64,000 nt of DNA. Source: Variovorax sp. (GTDB lineage Bacteria > Pseudomonadota > Gammaproteobacteria > Burkholderiales > Burkholderiaceae_C). The notes beneath the pieces are model-generated. The model did not search any database. It worked only from the letters and a program-made list of their open reading frames with translations, and was not told the DNA's origin. The translations under genes were made by a program, and so were the position numbers. This document shows positions 24,689 through 36,218 of this stretch, in pieces. The DNA lies in the NCBI GenBank assembly GCA_017744285.1, contig JAGIBP010000004.1, positions 62,001 to 126,000 of the forward strand. The letters run 5' to 3'. Each line of letters begins with the position of its first letter. The stretch's first letter is position 1.

Positions 24689-25453
24689 ATGACCGACGAG
24701 AGCAGCCAGCAAGCTGGCCAGAAGTTCATCAGCGACCATTGGCTGCACCTGAGTTCGCGCACGCGGCTGACGCTGCGCAAGGCCGGCTTCTATGGCGAGA
24801 AGGGCGCCAGGAACCCGGAGTCCGAACGGGGCTTCGGCCCCTACGAGCGGATTCGCGAACTGGAGGCCGCGCTCGGCCGGCTCTCGAATCATGTCGAGGG
24901 GGCGGGAGCGGCCCTGTCGGTGGATGAGGTGGCGCTCGCCTGCCGCGAGATCCTGTACGTGCCCGAATGGCGTGATCCGGAGTTCATCCGCCTCGCCTTC
25001 CGCGCGATGGCGTCGCAGCTGCGCGATGCGGCGGCGCCGCCGATCGCGCCCATCGAGGCGAGGCGCGATGCGGCACGGTGGCGCGCTCGCGCGGCCACCG
25101 CGTTGGCCGTGGCCGCACTGCCGCTGGCGATGGCCTGGGCGCTCGTCGGCGGCTGGCGCGGCCAGTTGGTCGAAGCCTCTGCGGGGCTCTATGCCGCGGC
25201 CGTGGTCGGGGCCGCGCTGGCGTGGGTGGTACGCCGGCAGTCGGGCACGCTGCGGTCGCTCGATCTCGAACAGCAGCGCCTGCAGGCATGGGAGCGCCAT
25301 GCATTGATGGACGACGTGCCGGTCATCGGCGCGGGCCACCGGTTTCGCCTGGAGCAGCTCGCCTCGTGCGGCGTGGTCGTGCCGCCGATCGCTTTCGACC
25401 TGGTCGCGGCGCTCGAAGTGGAAACCGGGCGCCAGCTGGAGTCCATCGGCTAG
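24689..25453 (+). CDS. Hypothetical protein with two predicted TM helices
   Basis: MTDESSQQAGQKFISDHWLHLSSRTRLTLRKAGFYGEKGARNPESERGFGPYERIRELEAALG...; TM-like ATALAVAALPLAMAWALVGG and ASAGLYAAAVVGAALAWVV. Confidence 0.7.
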   Translation: MTDESSQQAGQKFISDHWLHLSSRTRLTLRKAGFYGEKGARNPESERGFGPYERIRELEAALGRLSNHVEGAGAALSVDEVALACREILYVPEWRDPEFIRLAFRAMASQLRDAAAPPIAPIEARRDAARWRARAATALAVAALPLAMAWALVGGWRGQLVEASAGLYAAAVVGAALAWVVRRQSGTLRSLDLEQQRLQAWERHALMDDVPVIGAGHRFRLEQLASCGVVVPPIAFDLVAALEVETGRQLESIG

Positions 25454-25471: not shown

Positions 25472-26038
25472 ATGACCCTCACTTCTGCCGACAACCCGCA
25501 GCCCCTGGTCGTGTGGCTGACGGGACTCTCCGGAGCGGGAAAGTCGACGCTCGCCCTGGCACTGAAAGACAGGCTCGCGCGGTCCGGCGCGCCGCCGGTC
25601 GTCCTGGACGGCGACAGGATCCGCGCCGGCCTGTGCAGCGACCTGGGTTTCGGACCCGAGGATCGCCGGGAGAACGTTCGCCGCGTGGCGGAGGTCGCCC
25701 GGCTCTTCGTGGAGGAAGGCCGGATCGCGATCGTGGCGCTCATCTCGCCCCTGCAGGAAGACCGCCGCCTGGCACGACGCATCATCGGCGCGCCGCGCTT
25801 CGTCGAAGCCTATTGCGACTGCGCGCTGGAGGTCTGCGAGGCGCGCGACCCCAAGGGTCTGTATCGGCGGGCGCGCAGCGGCGAGATCGACCAGTTCACC
25901 GGCATCTCGTCCCCCTACGAACCGCCGCTGGCACCCGATCTCGCCTTGGACACGGCCAGCAGCAGCATTGCGCAGTGCGCGGATACGCTGATGCGCTTTC
26001 TGCGCAACCGCTGCGCTACCACCACGGTGGAACGGTGA
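25472..26038 (+). CDS. cysC: Adenylylsulfate (APS) kinase
   Basis: WLTGLSGAGKSTLALAL, VVLDGDRIRAGLCSDLGFGPEDRRENVRRVAEVARLF, ISPLQEDRRLAR, EVCEARDPKGLYRRARSGEIDQFTGISSPYEPP. Confidence 0.93.
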   Translation: MTLTSADNPQPLVVWLTGLSGAGKSTLALALKDRLARSGAPPVVLDGDRIRAGLCSDLGFGPEDRRENVRRVAEVARLFVEEGRIAIVALISPLQEDRRLARRIIGAPRFVEAYCDCALEVCEARDPKGLYRRARSGEIDQFTGISSPYEPPLAPDLALDTASSSIAQCADTLMRFLRNRCATTTVER

Positions 26039-26930
26039 CGAGCATGGCGAGACCGATCACCGCATGGATGCGCCGGTAGCAGGCCTGCAGTCGGGCCAGG
26101 GCGCCGAAGTCGAGCCCGCCGCGCAGCGCCCGCAGCGTCGCGCGCAGGTGCAGCGGATAGAGCAGGACCGCCGAGCCCAGCACCGCGGGCACGATGCCCG
26201 ATAGGGCGAGCGCGGCGAGGAGCGCGTAGGCCAGCGTGAACAGCCCGAGGCTGGCCAGCACCGTGCGCCGCCGCCCGAACGCCACCGCATTGGTGCGAAT
26301 GCCGTTGAGCAGATCGCCGTCGTGGTCGCGCGCCTCGTGCGTGAGGTGACCGGCGGCGAAGACGATGCCGAAATAGCAGGCCATGGCCAGCCCCGGCGCC
26401 GACACCGGTGCGAAGGCGGAGTGGCCGAGCAGGAAGTGCAGCGTCCCGCCGGCGAGGTGCAGGATGGAGCTGAAGACCGGTGTTCCCTTCCCCTGCACCC
26501 CCGGCGCTGAATAGAGGGCGCTGAGCCCGGCGATGGCGGCGGCGATCACGAACGGCGTGGGGCCCACCATGCCGAAGACGAGCAGGGCCAGGGTCAGCAG
26601 CGCGAGGGCGAGGCCGCCCATCTCGGCGCGGCCGATGCCTTTTGCGATGAAGGTTCGCTCGCGGCGGTTCGGGTCGCGCAGGTCGCCGGCGATGCCGGCC
26701 CAGTCGTTGAATACGAAGACGTGCGCCACCAGGCACAGGTTGCCGGCGAGCAGGGTGGCCAGGGTCCAGAGCGCGGGTGCGGTGATGTCCTGCATCGCAT
26801 GGCAGGCGCCGAGCAACGGCGCGCCCTGGAGCACGCACACCTCGTCGAGGCGGATGCAGTCCGGCAGCCGGCGCAGCGAAGCGCCGCGGCGGGGAGCCGG
26901 CCTGCGAGCCTGGGCGTCCGCGCGGGTCAT
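26016..26930 (-). CDS. UbiA-family prenyltransferase (DPPR-synthase-like motifs)
   Basis: FVFNDWAGIAGDLRDPNRRERTFIAKG and HEARDHDGDLLNGIRTNAVAFG Asp motifs; multi-TM; ATG overlaps upstream TGA (ATGA). Confidence 0.83.
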   Translation of the reverse strand: MTRADAQARRPAPRRGASLRRLPDCIRLDEVCVLQGAPLLGACHAMQDITAPALWTLATLLAGNLCLVAHVFVFNDWAGIAGDLRDPNRRERTFIAKGIGRAEMGGLALALLTLALLVFGMVGPTPFVIAAAIAGLSALYSAPGVQGKGTPVFSSILHLAGGTLHFLLGHSAFAPVSAPGLAMACYFGIVFAAGHLTHEARDHDGDLLNGIRTNAVAFGRRRTVLASLGLFTLAYALLAALALSGIVPAVLGSAVLLYPLHLRATLRALRGGLDFGALARLQACYRRIHAVIGLAMLVTVPPWW

Positions 26931-29692
26931 CGGCTGGCGCATTCCGTTCGGGCGGCGGCGTCTGCATCGCACCGGGGCGCCGCGTCGGCACCTTGCCGGG
27001 ATGCGTGGTAGAGCCGCAGCCACAGTGCGTAGCCGATATCCTCCGACCAGTAGAAGCGCCGCACGGTCGCGCTCAGGTCGTTGTGGTAAAGCAGCACGGG
27101 CGTGCTGGCGACCAGTGCGAAGTCCCGCGCCGCGATCTCCCACAGCAGGCGCGATGCCTGCGCCTGCTGCGCCGGCGTGGGCGGGGCGGCATGCATCTGC
27201 CCGAGCAGCCGCGCGGCCTGCACCCAATGCTCCTGGCCGGGCACGTCGGAGCGCAGCCGCGGGGGCGGCAGCTCCAGCGCGCAGCCGGCGCGTTCCAGGT
27301 CCGCCAGACGCAGGATCGCCATGGGCGGGGCGCCGGCGTAGTAGACCCAGAGCCCGTCATCCGAGGCCCGGGCCGCCAGCGCCCGGCACAGGGCCGCGGC
27401 CGCGGGAGGATCCTCCTGCGCGAGCAGCATGAGGATGTGCATCTGGATGACCAGGTCGGCCGGATTCGGGTCGCGTCCCGGGTCCAGGCACTGGTAGTGG
27501 TCGCGCTCGGCGAGCCAGGTCCGGTACAGCCCGTCGGGCCGGCGGAAGCGCTGCAGGGTCGCGATGGCGCGAGGCAGCAGGCTCCTGTCGGACGCGGGCG
27601 CGAGCCGCCACGCGAGGGCCGTGTCGTCCGAATCGGGCGTGATCGCGCACCCCAGCACCCCGATGGTGGGCGCGTCGGGCCGGCCGTGGTAGCGCACCAG
27701 GCCGTCCGGCTCGATCTGGCCTGCGAGGTAGGCGCGCGCCTTCGCCAGTGCGGTGGCGAGGGGTGGATCGCCTCCGACCGGCCCCGCGACATCGAGCATG
27801 ACCGCGTTCAGGTAGGTGTTCAGCTCGCGCTGCGGCTTGTCGTAGTCCGTGCCGCTGGTGAAGGTGGTGAGCCAGTAGCCGTGCGCCTGCTGGTGCGCCG
27901 CCAGACGCTGCGCCGCGAGACGGGCCCAGCGCTCCAGCACCGGGTCGCGCCCATCGACCGGCGTGGACGCCGGGACCTCGAAGGGGCGCAGCCGCAAGAG
28001 CCGCGGCTCCGCGCCGGGGTCCGGTCGCACCAGGACGGCGAGCGAATGGGTGCCCGGCGCGAGCCAGTCGGCCGCGAACCGGACCCGCCAGCCCGCGGGG
28101 CGGGGCTCGCCCAGCGTGCGGACCACGTCGGGCCGGGTGAAGAACTCGGCCGTGCCGGCGACGAAGCGCCCGTCGACGAGCACCGAGATGTCCGAGGGCG
28201 AGCGCGAATCCACGAGCGCCCATCCCGCGGCATCGATCTGCCTGTCGGTGCGCCCGGCGAGTTCGCTGCCGTCCCCCGCGACCTCGGCCACCTCGATCAG
28301 GTCGACGTTGCCGCGCAGCGTGCGCAAGAGGTCGGGCGCTGCGCGCGGATGCCCGAGCTCGGCGACGAAGGGGGCGTTCCGGGGCTGCCACATCCCGTGC
28401 ATCCGTTGGTCGCCGCGCGCCTGCACCAGCATGACGTCTACCGTGCCGAGGTACCAGAAGGCCCCCACGGCCTGGATCGCGATGGCGGCCCCGCAGGCGA
28501 TGCCGAACACCATGCGCCCCGGCCGGGACAGCGCGGCCACGACCGGCGCAAGCAGCCAGAACAGCATCGGCAGCATGTCGCCGAGCCAGCGCGGCCCATA
28601 GGACACGCCCTGGCGCCAGTCGACCGTGGCGTAGAGGACGACCTGCGCCACCCAGGCGGCAGCGATCGCCAGGGTCAGCGCCCGATTCGCCTTGTCGCGC
28701 CAGGCCGCCGCGAACAGGCACGGCAGCACCAGCAGGAAGGGCGAGAAGACGAACAGCCCGCGGGTGGGGCTGAACAGCAGCCCCAGGACGCCGCCGAGGA
28801 AGTCGTCGTTGTAGTTGGCCGGCCGCACGAGCAGCGCGTAGCCGCCGGCGATGTGGCCCACCGCGATCAGGTTATAGGCGGCGGTCAGCCCGGCGGGCAC
28901 CAGTGCGGTCGCCACCAGGAGCAGGCGAAGCGGCCCCGCCCACCACAGGCCGTACAGGCCGAGCGCCGCCCCGAGGATGGCATCGGGCGGCCGGTTCGCG
29001 GCCATCATGCCGCACAGCAGGCCGGCCACGGCCACGCGCAGGGCGGTGCGCGGGCCGGTCAGCAGCAGCATCGCCGCGACCACGAGAAGCTGCGCCAGCC
29101 CATGCACCCAGAGCGCCTGGCTGCTGATCGCCCAGGTGGTGGTGCCGAAAGCGTAGACGAGGCTCAGGCCGCAGGCCATGGCGGGCGGCCCGCGCCGCCG
29201 CAGCAGCAGGTAGAGCAGGCCGGCCGACGCCGCGGCGATCAGCGACGCGACCAGCTTCTCCATGAGCCGCGCGACGTGGTCGAAGAGGTGGGGGTCCCAG
29301 CCGCGCGCATCGAGGTAGGCGACCGCGGGCACATAGAGCGGCGCGATGACGACCGGCAGGAGGACGGGATAGGTCGACACTTGGTGGCCGTCCTGCCCGC
29401 GCGTGATCCAGAAGGCCGAGGTGTGGTGGCCCCGTTCCAGCGGAGCCTGCCGGCCCTGGGCGACGGTGTCCACGATCGGGTCGAGGAGCACGGTGTGGTG
29501 GCGCAGGATCGAGAACGGCAGGTAGCGTGCCGCATAGGTATCGGCCGCCGGCATCGCGCGCAGGTTGGCGTTGTACACGGCGAAGCTGAACAGCCCGATG
29601 AAGAGCGCGATGACGATGTCGCGCCAGCCGGCGTTCGCGCCGCGCGCCCCCGTGGGGGGCGCCGGGGGAGCGTCCGTGGCGCGCTTCATCAT
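26927..29692 (-). CDS. Multi-spanning GT-C-like membrane protein fused to C-terminal alpha-toroid (terpene cyclase/prenyltransferase-repeat-like) domain
   Basis: MMKRATDAPP...WRDIVIALFIGLFSFAVYNANLRAMPAADTYAARYLPFSILRHHTVLLDP; about 10 TM; C-term repeats EPDGLVRY, RPDGLYRTW, SDDGLWVYY and DSDDTALAWRL; true start inside ORF 26927..30265. Confidence 0.75.
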   Translation of the reverse strand: MMKRATDAPPAPPTGARGANAGWRDIVIALFIGLFSFAVYNANLRAMPAADTYAARYLPFSILRHHTVLLDPIVDTVAQGRQAPLERGHHTSAFWITRGQDGHQVSTYPVLLPVVIAPLYVPAVAYLDARGWDPHLFDHVARLMEKLVASLIAAASAGLLYLLLRRRGPPAMACGLSLVYAFGTTTWAISSQALWVHGLAQLLVVAAMLLLTGPRTALRVAVAGLLCGMMAANRPPDAILGAALGLYGLWWAGPLRLLLVATALVPAGLTAAYNLIAVGHIAGGYALLVRPANYNDDFLGGVLGLLFSPTRGLFVFSPFLLVLPCLFAAAWRDKANRALTLAIAAAWVAQVVLYATVDWRQGVSYGPRWLGDMLPMLFWLLAPVVAALSRPGRMVFGIACGAAIAIQAVGAFWYLGTVDVMLVQARGDQRMHGMWQPRNAPFVAELGHPRAAPDLLRTLRGNVDLIEVAEVAGDGSELAGRTDRQIDAAGWALVDSRSPSDISVLVDGRFVAGTAEFFTRPDVVRTLGEPRPAGWRVRFAADWLAPGTHSLAVLVRPDPGAEPRLLRLRPFEVPASTPVDGRDPVLERWARLAAQRLAAHQQAHGYWLTTFTSGTDYDKPQRELNTYLNAVMLDVAGPVGGDPPLATALAKARAYLAGQIEPDGLVRYHGRPDAPTIGVLGCAITPDSDDTALAWRLAPASDRSLLPRAIATLQRFRRPDGLYRTWLAERDHYQCLDPGRDPNPADLVIQMHILMLLAQEDPPAAAALCRALAARASDDGLWVYYAGAPPMAILRLADLERAGCALELPPPRLRSDVPGQEHWVQAARLLGQMHAAPPTPAQQAQASRLLWEIAARDFALVASTPVLLYHNDLSATVRRFYWSEDIGYALWLRLYHASRQGADAAPRCDADAAARTECASR

Positions 29693-30765
29693 CGCCGCGA
29701 CAGCCTGTAGGCCACACGGCGGCAGTGCGCGTTCCACGCCGCCGCGCCGGCCTCCTGCCAGGTGAAGCCCGCCGCCTCGAAGGCCGCCTGGAGCGCCGGT
29801 TCGTTGATGATCATCATGCTGCGGTTGCCGTCCTGGAGCGCGACCGCCGGCGAGACGAAGGCATCGGCCAGCACCCAGCCTTGCGTGGCCAGGAGACGGT
29901 GGATCTCCGCCAGCATCCCCTGGATCTCGCCGAGCCCCAGGTGGGTGAAGACGGAGGCCAGATAGATGAGGTCGAAGACCTCGCCTTCGAGGGGAAGGCG
30001 GGTCGCCTCGTTGCGCAGGAAACGGAAATTCGCCTGGGGAAAGCGCCGCCTGCAGAAGGCGACCGCTTCCTCGGCGATGTCGGTGCCGACATAGGCGCCC
30101 CCCGGCGACAGGGCCGCCGACAGCGGCTCGGTCAGCTGGCCGGTGCCGCAGCCGATGTCGAGGATGCGCGCATCGGCGCGCAGCCCGAGCTGCTGCAGCC
30201 TCGCCAGCTTGGCGCGCCCCTGGGCCTCGTACTCCTCGCGCGTGGCGGGGCCGACGATGGACCACCAGTCCCGCTCGAGGTCCGCCTTCGCATAGGCGTC
30301 CCGATAGTCGAAGTCGACCCCCGCTGTGCCGCCCGACAGCCGCCTGCGCAAGCCGATGCAGGCCCCCTGCGGCGCCCAGGGCTTGCCCTCCGGCGTCTCC
30401 AGCAGGAGGCCGATGCGCACGTCGAGCGAACTGTTGATGGGCGCGGCGATCTCGGCATGCAAGGTCGTGTCGTCCCCCGGCGCCAGCGGCGGGATCGCCA
30501 TCAACGGCTGCCGCGCGACCTCCACTTCCGGATTCGCGTCGGCGAGGGTCCAGCGCAGCAGCAGCCGCGCGGGCGGCGATGGGTGCCGGCCCGTGTTGCG
30601 GCAGGCGAGCCGCACGCCGATCGGCACGCCGACCTGGGGTTCCCGCGCGAAGGCCAGCAGCGACAGCCGGAGTTCCGCGCCGCTTCCCAGCGCGTAGCGG
30701 CAGGCCGCCGCATCGCCGCCGTCCTCCGTCGCGCGGCCGATGTCCTTCAACAGGCGCCTCAGCAT
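29689..30765 (-). CDS. Class I SAM-dependent methyltransferase with extra N-terminal beta-rich domain
   Basis: ARILDIGCGTGQLTEPLSAALSPGGAYVGTDIAEEAVAFCRRRFPQANFRFL; ~150 aa upstream of the MTase core; stop overlaps next ATG (ATGA). Confidence 0.85.
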   Translation of the reverse strand: MLRRLLKDIGRATEDGGDAAACRYALGSGAELRLSLLAFAREPQVGVPIGVRLACRNTGRHPSPPARLLLRWTLADANPEVEVARQPLMAIPPLAPGDDTTLHAEIAAPINSSLDVRIGLLLETPEGKPWAPQGACIGLRRRLSGGTAGVDFDYRDAYAKADLERDWWSIVGPATREEYEAQGRAKLARLQQLGLRADARILDIGCGTGQLTEPLSAALSPGGAYVGTDIAEEAVAFCRRRFPQANFRFLRNEATRLPLEGEVFDLIYLASVFTHLGLGEIQGMLAEIHRLLATQGWVLADAFVSPAVALQDGNRSMMIINEPALQAAFEAAGFTWQEAGAAAWNAHCRRVAYRLSRR

Positions 30766-30790
30766 GCCGAGGGCCTCTCCGGCCGCGTGT

Positions 30791-33463
30791 TCATCGCAGC
30801 CCCGGCGGATCGTGGCGCAGCCGGCGGGCATGGCGCCAGCGGCGCCAGCGCGCCATGAGGCTGTTCAGGAGTGCACCGATGCGGTATTGCTGCTTGATCT
30901 CGTTCGGCCCCGCGGCCACCCCTTGGGCCAGGGTCAGCGTGTCGGTGATCCCCATGCGCCACACGATGGCAGGCACCCGGGGCAGCCGTGCCATGTAGTA
31001 GCCCGGGAAGCGCAGCATGTCGGTGGCGAGCCGCGCGGCGGACGATCGGGTGGGCAGCGGTGCGGGGGCGCCGCGGGCGTGCGAGGAGGGCGCCGCAGCC
31101 CCGCCCTGGCGCCGCAGGTGCAGGCGCGCCGAGCGCTCGATGCGCAGGAGGCGCTCGCGCATCGCGCCGCCGACAGCGGCCTCGCCGTAGAGGCGCGCCA
31201 CCGTCTCCGCGCCGGCCCGGCCGATCGCCGCGCGCCAGGCCTTGTCGGTCCAGACCCGGCGCATCAGATGCGCGGCCGCGTCCAGCCGCGGCTCCGCCCA
31301 GAGCGTGCCCGCCGGATACGGACCGTGCGCGCGCGTGGCGGCGACGAGGTCGTAGGGAACGAGCGCCGCGTTGTCGGCGGTGGTGAAGTCGGCGTTGCCG
31401 CTCCAGCCGGTCGCCACGACCGGCAGCCCGTGAGCCATGGCCTCGGCAATGGACAGGCCGAAGCCCTCGGCGCGGTGCAGCGAGACGAAGCTGTCGGCGC
31501 TCGCGACGAGGCGCAGGTTGTCGCCGCTGCCCAGGGCTTCGTCGAAGACCGAGATCCGCTGGCCGGCCGCCGCGCTGCGCAGGCGGTCCACGAGGCCGGG
31601 CTCGGCGTGCCCGTTGAGCAGCTTGAGCACGAGGCGCACCGGCTCGTGCGGCGAGAACGCCTGGGTGAAGGCCGCGATCACGCCCTCGGGGTTCTTGCGG
31701 AAGCTGACCGACGCGGCGTCGAATTGGAAGAGAAAGACGAATTCCTCTTCCGTGACCTCGGGCAGGTGCCTTGCCAGCCATGCGCGGTCGCGCCGGGCGC
31801 GGGGCGGTCGCACCATGGGCGGCATCACCAGCACCGGCACGGTCGCCTTGGCCCGGATCGCATCGGCGACGAATTGCGTCGCGACCCAGATCTCGTCCAC
31901 CAGGTCGAAGCGATTCGTCCAGGCCTCGGGGAACTCCGGCGTCTCCCAGTACCAGCAGCCGATGCGATAGCTGTCGGCCAACGGGCGCGGCAGCGCCGCC
32001 AGCACGCCCGGCAGGACATCCGCGTTGCAGCCGAGAAGGGTGATCGGCGCGACCTGCATCTCCCGCGCGGTGGCGACGGCATAGTCGCCCATCGGCGCCG
32101 CGGCGGCGGCCGAAATGTCGTGCGTGCGCACCGCGACACCCGCGGCGTGCAGCGCGGCGATGCTCTGCCGCGCCGCCTCGCCGACACCGAGGTGCGAGCG
32201 CAGGTAGCCGACGTAGTTGACGCTCGGCGCGCCCCGGGCGACCGCGCCCGCGATGCGCTCCACCAGGCGGGGGGAGAGGCCGGCCTCCGCGACGCCCGAG
32301 CCGCGCATCCATGACGACAGCCCGCCCGCATCGCGGCCGTCGTCGTAGGCGGCGGCGACATCGACCCGCAGGCGCAGCAGTTGCCGCACGTAGCGCGGGA
32401 CGTGGTCGCCGGGCGCGGTCGCCATGGCCCAGTCCAGGACGCCGGGGTCTTCGAGGGGATCGCCCAGGTCGCGGCCTTCGGCCACCGCCTGGCGGTACAG
32501 CGCGCGGCAGATGGCGTCCCATGCGGTGCCGTCGCGGAACGCGGCGCGCGGCGCCTCGATCGCGCGGAAGGCCTCGGCGCCGGCCTGCACGAGCGCGTTC
32601 GCGTAGTCCTCGAGCAATCGCGGCGCATCGCCCGGCGCACGCCTGCCGAACCGGGTCTCGTGTTTCGAGATCCTCTGCTGTCCGGGCGTGAAGCCGCTGA
32701 AGTGGAAGAAGATCAGGTCGCGGTGCTCGCCCTCGCGGCTCTCGACCTGCCAGCGGCCGCCGACATGGCGGGGGGTGCGTTCGTGCAGGTTCCAGTAGGC
32801 GACGTTGAAGCCGGGGTGTTCCAGCACCGCGCTGTTGCGCACCAGCAGCGGGGCGTAGTCCATCCACTTCTGGTCGGTGAAGACGCCTTCGCGCACATCG
32901 TGCAGGCAGTGGCGATGGAGCTTCGCGTCCCACCAGTCGAGCAGCGCGCGCGCCTGCGGCGTGTCGCGCAGCGCCGCGAAGCCCAGGTTGTACATGCCGG
33001 CGCGCAGGATCGCGAGGTCGTCGGGCTGCAAGCCGTCGTCCGGCAGCGGGCTGAGGAGGTGCGGCGTCAGCACCAGCGCGTCATCCGATTCGTCGCCGCG
33101 CCAGAAGAGGTCGAGCCGCTGGTAGACGCGGATGTCGGGGTCCAGGTAGATCGCCCGCCGCGCCCCGCGGTCGAACAGGAAGCGGAAGCACGCGGGCTTC
33201 ACGCTCGTGGCGAACTCGAGGATGTCGTAGTGCGCCCGCCGGTGATTCCATTCGCGACGCTCGAAGGCGCGCTCGGCCGGAACGATGACGAGGTGGTCGG
33301 GCAGCGACACGCCCTCGGGGAGCGCATCGAGCAGGAAGACGACGAGCCGCTGGCCGGGGTGGTGCTCGCCGATCGACGCACCGAGGACGCTGGCCTGGGC
33401 CAGGTAGTTGCTCGCGGCGATGGTGAAGATGGCGGGCTCGTGATCGAAACCGGGTTCACTCAT
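30791..33463 (-). CDS. Two-domain glycosyltransferase: N-terminal GT-A/GT8-like (DxD) + C-terminal GT4
   Basis: FTIAASNYLAQASVLGASIGEHHPGQRLVVFLLD...AIYLDPDIRVYQRL; C-term NPEGVIAAFTQAF...ADSFVSLHRAEGFGLSIAEAMAHGLPVVATGWSGNADFTT; alternative start 33478. Confidence 0.85.
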   Translation of the reverse strand: MSEPGFDHEPAIFTIAASNYLAQASVLGASIGEHHPGQRLVVFLLDALPEGVSLPDHLVIVPAERAFERREWNHRRAHYDILEFATSVKPACFRFLFDRGARRAIYLDPDIRVYQRLDLFWRGDESDDALVLTPHLLSPLPDDGLQPDDLAILRAGMYNLGFAALRDTPQARALLDWWDAKLHRHCLHDVREGVFTDQKWMDYAPLLVRNSAVLEHPGFNVAYWNLHERTPRHVGGRWQVESREGEHRDLIFFHFSGFTPGQQRISKHETRFGRRAPGDAPRLLEDYANALVQAGAEAFRAIEAPRAAFRDGTAWDAICRALYRQAVAEGRDLGDPLEDPGVLDWAMATAPGDHVPRYVRQLLRLRVDVAAAYDDGRDAGGLSSWMRGSGVAEAGLSPRLVERIAGAVARGAPSVNYVGYLRSHLGVGEAARQSIAALHAAGVAVRTHDISAAAAAPMGDYAVATAREMQVAPITLLGCNADVLPGVLAALPRPLADSYRIGCWYWETPEFPEAWTNRFDLVDEIWVATQFVADAIRAKATVPVLVMPPMVRPPRARRDRAWLARHLPEVTEEEFVFLFQFDAASVSFRKNPEGVIAAFTQAFSPHEPVRLVLKLLNGHAEPGLVDRLRSAAAGQRISVFDEALGSGDNLRLVASADSFVSLHRAEGFGLSIAEAMAHGLPVVATGWSGNADFTTADNAALVPYDLVAATRAHGPYPAGTLWAEPRLDAAAHLMRRVWTDKAWRAAIGRAGAETVARLYGEAAVGGAMRERLLRIERSARLHLRRQGGAAAPSSHARGAPAPLPTRSSAARLATDMLRFPGYYMARLPRVPAIVWRMGITDTLTLAQGVAAGPNEIKQQYRIGALLNSLMARWRRWRHARRLRHDPPGLR

Positions 33464-33551
33464 CGAGGCGAGGCGCATCGTTCTCTGGTTGACTTGGAAG
33501 AGGCGCGCATTCTAGGGGTTCGTGCGGCCTCGCCCGGCCGGGTGGGGCGTC

Positions 33552-36218
33552 CTACGCGCCGGCGCCGGGACCCCGCCGCTCCGGTTCGCGCCATCGCGCG
33601 AGTTCCGCCTCGAGGTGGCGCGCGTAGGTCTCGGCCTCGACCCGCGCCGCCTCGAGGCTGCGCGCATATCCGGCCGCCGTGTCGCGCGCGTCCCGGGCCT
33701 GCGCCAATGCCGCCTCCAGGGACTGCGCATAGCGCTCGGCGGTGCGCGCATCCTCGGTCCTCACGGCCACCAATTGCTCGAGCGCCTGCGCGTGCTGCCG
33801 GGCGGCCATGCCGTTCTCGGCCAGCGCGGCGGCCTGGGCGGCGGACGCCGCCCGGATCGCTTCCGCGTTGAGGTTCAGGCGCACGCGCTCGTCCTCCTGG
33901 CCGATCAGGAAGTCCGCCAGCGGTTCCAGCGCCGCGCACGGCAACTCTCGCACCGCGGACGCGATCACCCGGGCGTTGTCGTGGCGATGCGTGGTGCGCA
34001 GCATGCTCCCCGCGCGCACCCGGTACCAGACGAGCGGCTCGGGCAGGCTGGCCAGCCGCAGGCGCGACGCGGCCGCCCGCAGGTGCAGCTGCCAGTCCTC
34101 GTAGGTGACGCCGCGCTGTTCGTGGAAGCCGCCCAGGCGCTCGAAGATCGCGCGGCGATAGATCCCGGACGCGTCGCCGAAGCAGTTGTGGACCGCGCCG
34201 ACGAGCAGGGGGCCGCCGGCGAAGAACTGGTCCGGGCCCTGCCCGTCCGGCGCGGCTTCCGGTGTGCCGGTGGCGTCATGGAAGTGGCGGACGCCGCAGG
34301 TGACGATGTCCGCCTGCAGCGCGTGCGCGGCCTGCCGCAGCGTCGCGACCAGGGCCGGGAAGGCCAGGTTGTCGTCGTCCAGGAGGATCACGAACTCCGT
34401 GGTCGCGGCGCGAATGCCTGCATTGCGCGCCGCGCCCAGGTAGCGGTTGGGCTGCCGCAGCAGCCGCAGGCCCAGGCCGCGATACCGTTCCTCGATCCCC
34501 GCGAGGTAGTGCAGCGCGTCGGCGCCGCGGCTTCCATCGTCGACCACGAGCACCGAGAAGTCGCGGTCGGTCTGCCGCAGGAGCGCCTGCAGGTTCTGAT
34601 CGAGCAGTTGCGGCCGTTCGAAATGCGTGATCACGACGGTGACGCCGGCCGTCGGCGACGCGGACGCGGCGCGTGGCGCCTGCACGCCGTCCGGCCGCAG
34701 GAGGGCAGCCACGTCGCGGCGCAGATCGCAGGCCGGGGCGAGGTCTTCCGAGTCGCGCCAGCGCCAGCCGGCGTTGTGCATCCACTGCGCGATCTCCTGC
34801 GACGGCACGAGGACCCTGTCGGCGCCCTCGACGGCCCTCTGCTCGATGTGTTCGACGGACAGCGTCACGAGATTGCCCGGGAAGCGCCGTTCGCGTTCGC
34901 GCTGCCATCGGCTGCCGCCGCCCGCGAGGATCGCGAGGGTCGTCTCCGCGAAGGCCAGGCCGGCCTGCTTGGCGACGATGCACGCATGGCCCGGGCCGCC
35001 GTGGTCCGGGAACAGGATGGCATCGAAAGCCCTTGCGCGCAGATGGCGGAACACCGCGATGGCGGGCCTCAGGAACGCAGGCTCGACCGGCTGTGCGTTG
35101 TCGTCGCAGGGTTCGATGTCGACCGCGTGCCGCTCGGCGAGCGCCGCCAGCGTCTGGCGCGTCGTTCCGGGAAAGTCCCCGCAGGGCACGAGCGTGAGGT
35201 GCGCCCCGGCGCCGGCCAGGCCTTCGAGCACGCTCGACAGGGGGCCGATCCGATCGGCGTCGAGCATGGCGGCGTTGGCGACGATGCACACGCGGGGCTG
35301 GCCGCACGCCGCCCGAGGCACGGCGACGGCCGGCGCGGCGGCGACCGCCGGCGTGCGGGCGGACTCCGCGGCCGGCGCGATCGCCGCGCACACGTCCGCG
35401 AACGATCGTGCTATGCCGTCCAGCACCGCCGCCTCCGGCTCGCCGTGGCGCAGGGCTTCGAAAGCGGGAGCGATCCAGAACGGCCAGATGCCCTCGCGGC
35501 CCCCGGGCACCCGCTGCGCATGCTGGTGACGACGGCCGGCGTCCAGGAAGGCCTCGATCTCCGGCGCGGCCTCGGCCAGCGGGCGTGGCCACGCGACACC
35601 GAGCCGATCGGCCAGGTGGAGCGCCACGCCCCGCCAGTCGTCCAGCAGCCCCGCATAGCTGCAGAAGGCGCGCACGCCGCCGCGCGTGTGGCGCTCGGCG
35701 GCAAGCGTGTAGCGCAGCCACAGCAGGCCCGCGCGGTCCAGGGTCCAGGGCTGCCAGGGCACCGCGCGGTGCTGGCGCGCCACCAGCGAAGCCGCCGCCT
35801 CGACGGGCTCGCGCAGCATCACCACCGGCAGGCATCGCACCCCCAGATCCGCCAGCGCGCGACGCCACAGCGGGAACACCAGCGCGCTGCGCGGATCCTT
35901 GAACACGAACAGCGTCTGGTCCGCGAATTCGGCCTCGATCATCTCCCGCATCGGCGCCAGGAAGTCTTGCGCCGCGGGCGTCTCGAACCAGGCGTCGGGT
36001 GGGCCGCCCAGGCCGTTGACCGTGGTGCCCGCCGCCGCCAGCACGCGGTCGTTGAGCGCGACCGCCGCTTCCGGCTCCCAGTGCCCCAGTTCGTTGCCCA
36101 GCCCCGCCGGGACCAGGTGCCGCGGCAGCGACGCGCCCAGCAGGCTGACCACCCGCGCGAGCGCGGAGGTGCCGCTGCGGTGCATGCCGAGAATGACGAT
36201 GGCGGTCCGGGCGCTCAC
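33552..36218 (-). CDS. Multidomain fusion: sulfotransferase + GT4-like + GT2 glycosyltransferase + C-terminal coiled coil
   Basis: GTG start VSARTAIVILGMHRSGTSALARVVSLLGA (5'-PSB-like), VFKDPRSALVFPLW...LREPVEAAASLVAR (3'-PB-like); RVCIVANAAMLD...; GT2 VTVVITHFERPQLLDQNLQALLRQTDRDFSVLVVDDGS...VILLDDDN...YEDWQLHLRAA; heptad C-terminus. Confidence 0.82.
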   Translation of the reverse strand: MSARTAIVILGMHRSGTSALARVVSLLGASLPRHLVPAGLGNELGHWEPEAAVALNDRVLAAAGTTVNGLGGPPDAWFETPAAQDFLAPMREMIEAEFADQTLFVFKDPRSALVFPLWRRALADLGVRCLPVVMLREPVEAAASLVARQHRAVPWQPWTLDRAGLLWLRYTLAAERHTRGGVRAFCSYAGLLDDWRGVALHLADRLGVAWPRPLAEAAPEIEAFLDAGRRHQHAQRVPGGREGIWPFWIAPAFEALRHGEPEAAVLDGIARSFADVCAAIAPAAESARTPAVAAAPAVAVPRAACGQPRVCIVANAAMLDADRIGPLSSVLEGLAGAGAHLTLVPCGDFPGTTRQTLAALAERHAVDIEPCDDNAQPVEPAFLRPAIAVFRHLRARAFDAILFPDHGGPGHACIVAKQAGLAFAETTLAILAGGGSRWQRERERRFPGNLVTLSVEHIEQRAVEGADRVLVPSQEIAQWMHNAGWRWRDSEDLAPACDLRRDVAALLRPDGVQAPRAASASPTAGVTVVITHFERPQLLDQNLQALLRQTDRDFSVLVVDDGSRGADALHYLAGIEERYRGLGLRLLRQPNRYLGAARNAGIRAATTEFVILLDDDNLAFPALVATLRQAAHALQADIVTCGVRHFHDATGTPEAAPDGQGPDQFFAGGPLLVGAVHNCFGDASGIYRRAIFERLGGFHEQRGVTYEDWQLHLRAAASRLRLASLPEPLVWYRVRAGSMLRTTHRHDNARVIASAVRELPCAALEPLADFLIGQEDERVRLNLNAEAIRAASAAQAAALAENGMAARQHAQALEQLVAVRTEDARTAERYAQSLEAALAQARDARDTAAGYARSLEAARVEAETYARHLEAELARWREPERRGPGAGA

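Follow-up and report, generated by a model that had tools for sequence, protein, structure and literature searches.

A Variovorax gene that joins a predicted sulfotransferase to glycosyltransferase modules and lies near an APS kinase gene

The window analysed here, a 64,000-nucleotide stretch of a Variovorax sp. genome assembly that is 69% complete, carries a gene for a protein in which a PAPS-type sulfotransferase (ST) is followed, from the N to the C terminus, by a Rossmann segment, a complete GT2 glycosyltransferase domain and an alpha-helical heptad tail. The catalytic motifs of the ST and GT2 domains are intact, the fusion is conserved in a second Variovorax strain, and at both loci it is accompanied by a gene for APS kinase. 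We consider it probable that two enzymes are fused in this protein, a carbohydrate sulfotransferase that depends on PAPS and a GT2 glycosyltransferase, both of which would act in the cytoplasm on one lipid-linked envelope glycan; and because the fusion stands beside a gene for synthesis of the sulfate donor, this soil bacterium probably builds a sulfated surface sugar.

Little is known of the sulfated polysaccharides made by heterotrophic proteobacteria, and the sulfotransferases involved can seldom be matched to a substrate. A sulfotransferase fused to a specific glycosyltransferase predicts which sugar is sulfated, so that a set of such fusions could link sulfotransferases to their substrates by sequence. 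The protein also suggests that half of a GT4 domain can be retained even when the donor site is missing.

The fusion gene and its domains

The open reading frame starts with GTG at 36218, stops at 33552 and encodes 888 aa (Table 1); the coordinates in the first-pass annotation were exact, and the motifs quoted there were located in the translation. Variovorax sp. WDL1 has an ortholog in the same operon, 69% identical over 860 aa, whose N-terminus agrees with the start codon chosen. The window has 70% GC and is rich in spurious open frames, but the fusion frame is not one of them, since it is under purifying selection relative to WDL1 (overall dN/dS 0.33; this ratio and the per-segment dN values below are NG86 estimates only); its GC content by codon position (78/53/91%) likewise rules out a spurious high-GC frame. 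An assembly artefact, which the first-pass annotation had kept in view, is also ruled out: the fusion is present in the WDL1 isolate genome, and the same domain order is found in another genus. Identity to WDL1 by segment is 76% (ST), 57% (GT4 half), 82% (GT2) and 66% (tail), with dN values of 0.145, 0.297, 0.115 and 0.213, respectively; the ST and GT2 domains are thus about equally constrained, and the highest dN marks the GT4 half as the least constrained part of the fusion.

Table 1. Positions of the fusion gene, its domains and motifs, and the neighbouring cassette genes in the window
Feature	Position	Strand	Basis
ST-GT4N-GT2-coiled-coil fusion gene	33552..36218	(-)	ORF and translation; WDL1 ortholog, same order
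Sulfotransferase domain, residues 1-286	35361..36218	(-)	Alignment of 28 homologs, profile, AF2, Foldseek
5'-phosphosulfate-binding loop GMHRSGTS, residues 11-18	36165..36188	(-)	Invariant G11, R14, G16, T17, S18 (28 sequences)
NELGHWE motif	36075..36095	(-)	N42, G45, E48 invariant (28 sequences)
KDPR motif, residues 107-110	35889..35900	(-)	K107 invariant (28 sequences)
3'-phosphate-binding motif LREPVEAAAS, residues 135-144	35787..35816	(-)	R136, P138, S144 invariant; SULT alignment
GT4 (GT-B) N-terminal half, residues 306-495	34734..35303	(-)	Alignment with L157 and L059; WDL1 identity; dN
GT2 glycosyltransferase domain, residues 523-760	33939..34652	(-)	PF00535 2.7e-21; PDB GT2 matches by sequence and fold
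C-terminal helical Ala-rich heptad tail, residues 761-877	33588..33938	(-)	Model helices; heptad score
Large glycosyltransferase, cassette core	30791..33478	(-)	Pfam; in 5 Variovorax cassettes
SAM methyltransferase	29689..30831	(-)	Pfam 1.6e-19; missing from WDL1 cassette
Large membrane protein, cassette core	26927..29710	(-)	GT-C-like by eye
UbiA-family prenyltransferase, cassette core	26016..26942	(-)	PF01040 2.1e-20; in all 5 cassettes
APS kinase (CysC), convergent with operon	25472..26038	(+)	PF01583 8e-61; makes PAPS

Although Pfam is silent on the N-terminal part of the fusion sequence alone (no PF13469 match at E<0.1, and scores below every Pfam sulfotransferase cut-off), its identity as a sulfotransferase is clear from homologs, profile and fold. 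In a search of its own genome the protein scored 11.8 bits against PF13469, compared with a gathering score of 27, and the WDL1 ortholog reached 23.5 bits; some more distant ST homologs fall in the range of 27.5-47.4 bits, and five of the homologs above the cut-off are L054 (47.4), L060 (45.2), L047 (36.1), L053 (27.8) and L062 (27.7). Thirteen residues are invariant in the alignment of 28 sequences (G11, R14, G16, T17, S18, N42, G45, E48, K107, W118, R136, P138 and S144). The sequence contains the [RK]SGT loop (in GMHRSGTS) and the RxPxxxxxS motif (REPVEAAAS), the latter lying in the segment LREPVEAAAS, whose aligned counterpart in SULT enzymes of solved structure is RNP..VA.S; E48 of NELGHWE is a candidate catalytic base. 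A profile built from the 28 homologs matched PDB sequences of SULT (5.3e-7) and TPST1 (9.2e-6), and a phmmer search of the PDB with the ST domain of L024 gave nothing useful. In the AF2 model of the domain (pLDDT 91.8, pTM 0.91), Foldseek ranks 1-24 against the PDB were all sulfotransferases and the first kinase appeared at rank 25. The sulfotransferase assignment of the first-pass annotation therefore holds at the superfamily level, as placed by profile and predicted fold, and its alternative, a kinase or NTPase P-loop, is ruled out by motifs, profile and fold.

The GT2 module, also recognised in the earlier annotation, is complete. Its PF00535 score is 76.7 bits against a cut-off of 23.3 (2.7e-21), and the motifs VVDDGS (558-563), LLDDDN (612-617) and YEDW (706-709) provide the DDG nucleotide site, the DXD metal site and the ED catalytic-base motif, all three being common to the related proteins L157, L059 and L165 described below. 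The GT2 part of the full-length AF2 model is of low confidence owing to a shallow alignment, and the domain arrangement was for that reason left unread from the model. The C-terminal heptad region is predicted to be helical, as had been anticipated, with model helices at 761-800, 805-820 and 824-877 (low confidence) and a heptad score that only 8 of 5000 shuffled sequences attained.

The segment between the two catalytic domains, called GT4-like in the first-pass annotation, proved to be so only in part. Its N-terminal Rossmann half has the GT4 fold, as indicated by a weak PF13439 match (0.0055), alignment to complete GT4 enzymes and an alpha/beta segment in the model; the C-terminal donor-binding half, which is present in L157 and L059, is absent between residues 495 and 522. 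Because the donor-binding domain is missing and the segment changes at about twice the pace of ST and GT2 (these two are 76-82% identical to WDL1, the GT4 half 57%), the half-domain is probably not catalytic, and the reading as an active GT4 was rejected because the C-terminal half is lacking.

Cassette genes and related fusions

Downstream of the fusion, the large glycosyltransferase (895 aa) contains a GT4 C-terminal half by Pfam, and its N-terminal half, without a Pfam match, appears GT8-like by eye. The 927-aa membrane protein, for which no Pfam match was found, was present in 5 of 102 Variovorax genomes; no other genome among the 274 sampled from the class carried it, and it is possibly an undescribed glycosyltransferase family. 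By eye, its N-terminal part is GT-C-like and its C-terminal domain looks soluble. The UbiA-family prenyltransferase may produce a polyprenyl-linked sugar for use as donor by this membrane protein. Just upstream of the APS kinase gene on the same strand (24689-25453, +), there is a gene for a 254-aa membrane-like protein without a significant Pfam match. No ABC exporter gene was seen in the island of the fusion.

The WDL1 cassette has the same gene order minus the methyltransferase, and APS kinase adjoins it there too. The cassette core (large glycosyltransferase, membrane protein and UbiA) was found, together with a GT2 gene, in three other Variovorax genomes, and neither the ST fusion nor an APS kinase gene was present within the roughly 20 kb fetched around each; their genomes do encode APS kinase, on other contigs. 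In these sister cassettes (L172, L173, L174) the GT2 gene follows UbiA and the large glycosyltransferase gene is divergently oriented, and L172 has an epimerase-like gene as well. Two cassettes thus carry both fusion and APS kinase and three carry neither, a pairing that supports the use of PAPS, although the two fusion-bearing cassettes share ancestry and the link counts about once. A true APS kinase (E<1e-45) occurs in 26 of 102 Variovorax genomes; as most members of the genus lack it, a role in ordinary assimilation is unlikely here.

This type of fusion is rare in the genus (2 of 102 Variovorax genomes), but the idea that it is unique was rejected, as many ST-GT fusions were found. A search with the N-terminal 286 residues gave hits in 29 of the 274 genomes that had been sampled from the class. 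The protein of Acidithiobacillus sp. KMB_Bin03 (L157, 1191 aa) consists of ST, a coiled coil, the GT4 N-terminal and C-terminal halves, and GT2, and in G211 (L059) neighbouring genes encode a 388-aa ST and a 741-aa protein of the order GT4N-GT4C-GT2, the pair adjoining an ABC exporter that is Wzm/Wzt-type by eye. In a 1363-aa protein (L165) from another genus of the family to which Variovorax belongs, ST is followed by a GT4-N-like segment, GT2, a coiled coil and a second GT2; the GT4-N-like segment is divergent (18% identity) and the GT4 C-terminal half is missing. Among the ST-containing ORFs of the fetched loci, GT2 or GT4 lies on the same chain in 39 of 107 (two records were counted twice, and the set was seeded by the fusion protein, so that the fraction is not an unbiased rate). 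Other partners are RgpF, WsaF, WbsX and a methyltransferase (L101, L133, L135, L155, L104). The ORFs come from Proteobacteria, Planctomycetes, Nitrospirae, Bacteroidetes and one actinobacterial MAG, and a FastTree tree with many weak nodes requires no fewer than 11 transitions between an ST that stands alone and one joined to a GT. As judged by domain content, the ST domain is a mobile module in polysaccharide enzymes, whose fusions to GT2, GT4, RgpF, WsaF or WbsX recur across several phyla and are little described: we found no description of ST-GT fusions in the open-access literature, and relatives in plasmid records are annotated as "sulfotransferase" or, in one case, "glycosyltransferase".

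Proposed function and competing explanations

We propose that the GT2 domain would add a sugar from a nucleotide-sugar donor to a lipid-linked envelope glycan in the cytoplasm, that the adjacent APS kinase would supply PAPS, and that the N-terminal domain would move sulfate from PAPS to the newly added sugar or to a neighbouring one. The GT4 half-domain may be a relic scaffold kept for folding, spacing or acceptor binding, and the helical tail might oligomerise the enzyme or tether its partners, the scaffolding role suggested earlier being plausible. It is rather unlikely, but conceivable, that the coupling is closer still, i.e. a single-chain "add and sulfate" enzyme that would pass the product of GT2 straight to its ST site with the GT4 half as acceptor-binding scaffold, and that would belong to an unrecognised class of ST-GT chimeras evolved repeatedly across several phyla.

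The two activities might instead be merely co-localised, with ST and GT2 serving different substrates or steps of one pathway and the fusion fixing their ratio and location. The ST domain has been joined to GT2, GT4, RgpF, WsaF, WbsX and methyltransferase partners and gained or lost a GT repeatedly on the tree, which implies that it needs no one particular glycosyltransferase; the recurrence in unrelated bacteria of the complete ST-GT4-GT2 fusion, and of these families encoded by two adjacent genes, argues for an ST that works with this GT family, and we regard co-localisation alone as a minor contender that deserves some weight. Much less weight is due to a chain terminator with a built-in ruler, in which ST would cap the chain and the helical tail would set its length as in WbdD, whose coiled coil measures O-antigen length (PMC6286764). 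A helical heptad tail is indeed present, and the locus of the split relative, L059, also encodes an ABC exporter, but the tail is only about 115 residues long and is placed after GT2 rather than beside ST, and the island is without an ABC exporter gene; such a terminator is possible, and less likely than joint action of ST and GT2. It is also improbable that the ST fold has been retained in an inactive form or uses another donor: all motif residues are present, ST is about as conserved as GT2, and APS kinase is adjacent, even though the protein lies below the Pfam sulfotransferase cut-offs and A. salmonicida has an ST-domain gene beside that of the multi-domain glycosyltransferase WbbB and an O-antigen without known sulfate (PMC4483657). 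The A. salmonicida case also counts against our main proposal.

Comparison with known systems

In the WbdD type of system, an enzyme that makes a terminating modification has a long coiled coil beside the transferase under its control, in an ABC-exporter locus; the present protein has a helical tail, and an exporter gene was not seen in its island. WbbB-like multi-domain O-antigen glycosyltransferases likewise carry several transferase modules per chain for a lipid-linked glycan, but no ST domain is reported on the WbbB chain. The chondroitin polymerase of E. coli K4 (K4CP) contains GT2 of the same fold and is the best solved-structure match to the GT2 domain of the fusion; it differs in having two GT2 domains and no sulfotransferase.

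For the N-terminal domain, the best solved-structure matches are PF13469 sulfotransferases (among them tyrosylprotein ST and the ST domains of CurM and olefin synthase), which share the P-loop ST fold, the RSGT 5'-phosphosulfate-binding loop and RxPxxxxxS, at TM scores of only about 0.4-0.5 and 15-20% identity; in the Variovorax protein this domain is joined to glycosyltransferase modules. Close parallels in organisation are L157 and L059, where the same ST, GT4 N-terminal-half and GT2 families occur in the same order; in both of them the C-terminal half of GT4 is retained, the coiled coil of L157 follows ST and precedes GT4, and L059 is divided into two genes. The co-occurrence of PAPS genes and a sulfotransferase within one polysaccharide cluster has been called a hallmark of the synthesis of sulfated polysaccharides (PMC11641403), and in the sulfated capsule locus of Vibrio sp. 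KMM 8419 genes for PAPS synthesis are found with sulfotransferases and glycosyltransferases (PMC11641403); the sulfotransferases are reported there as separate genes, whereas in Variovorax the sulfotransferase and the glycosyltransferase are parts of one polypeptide.
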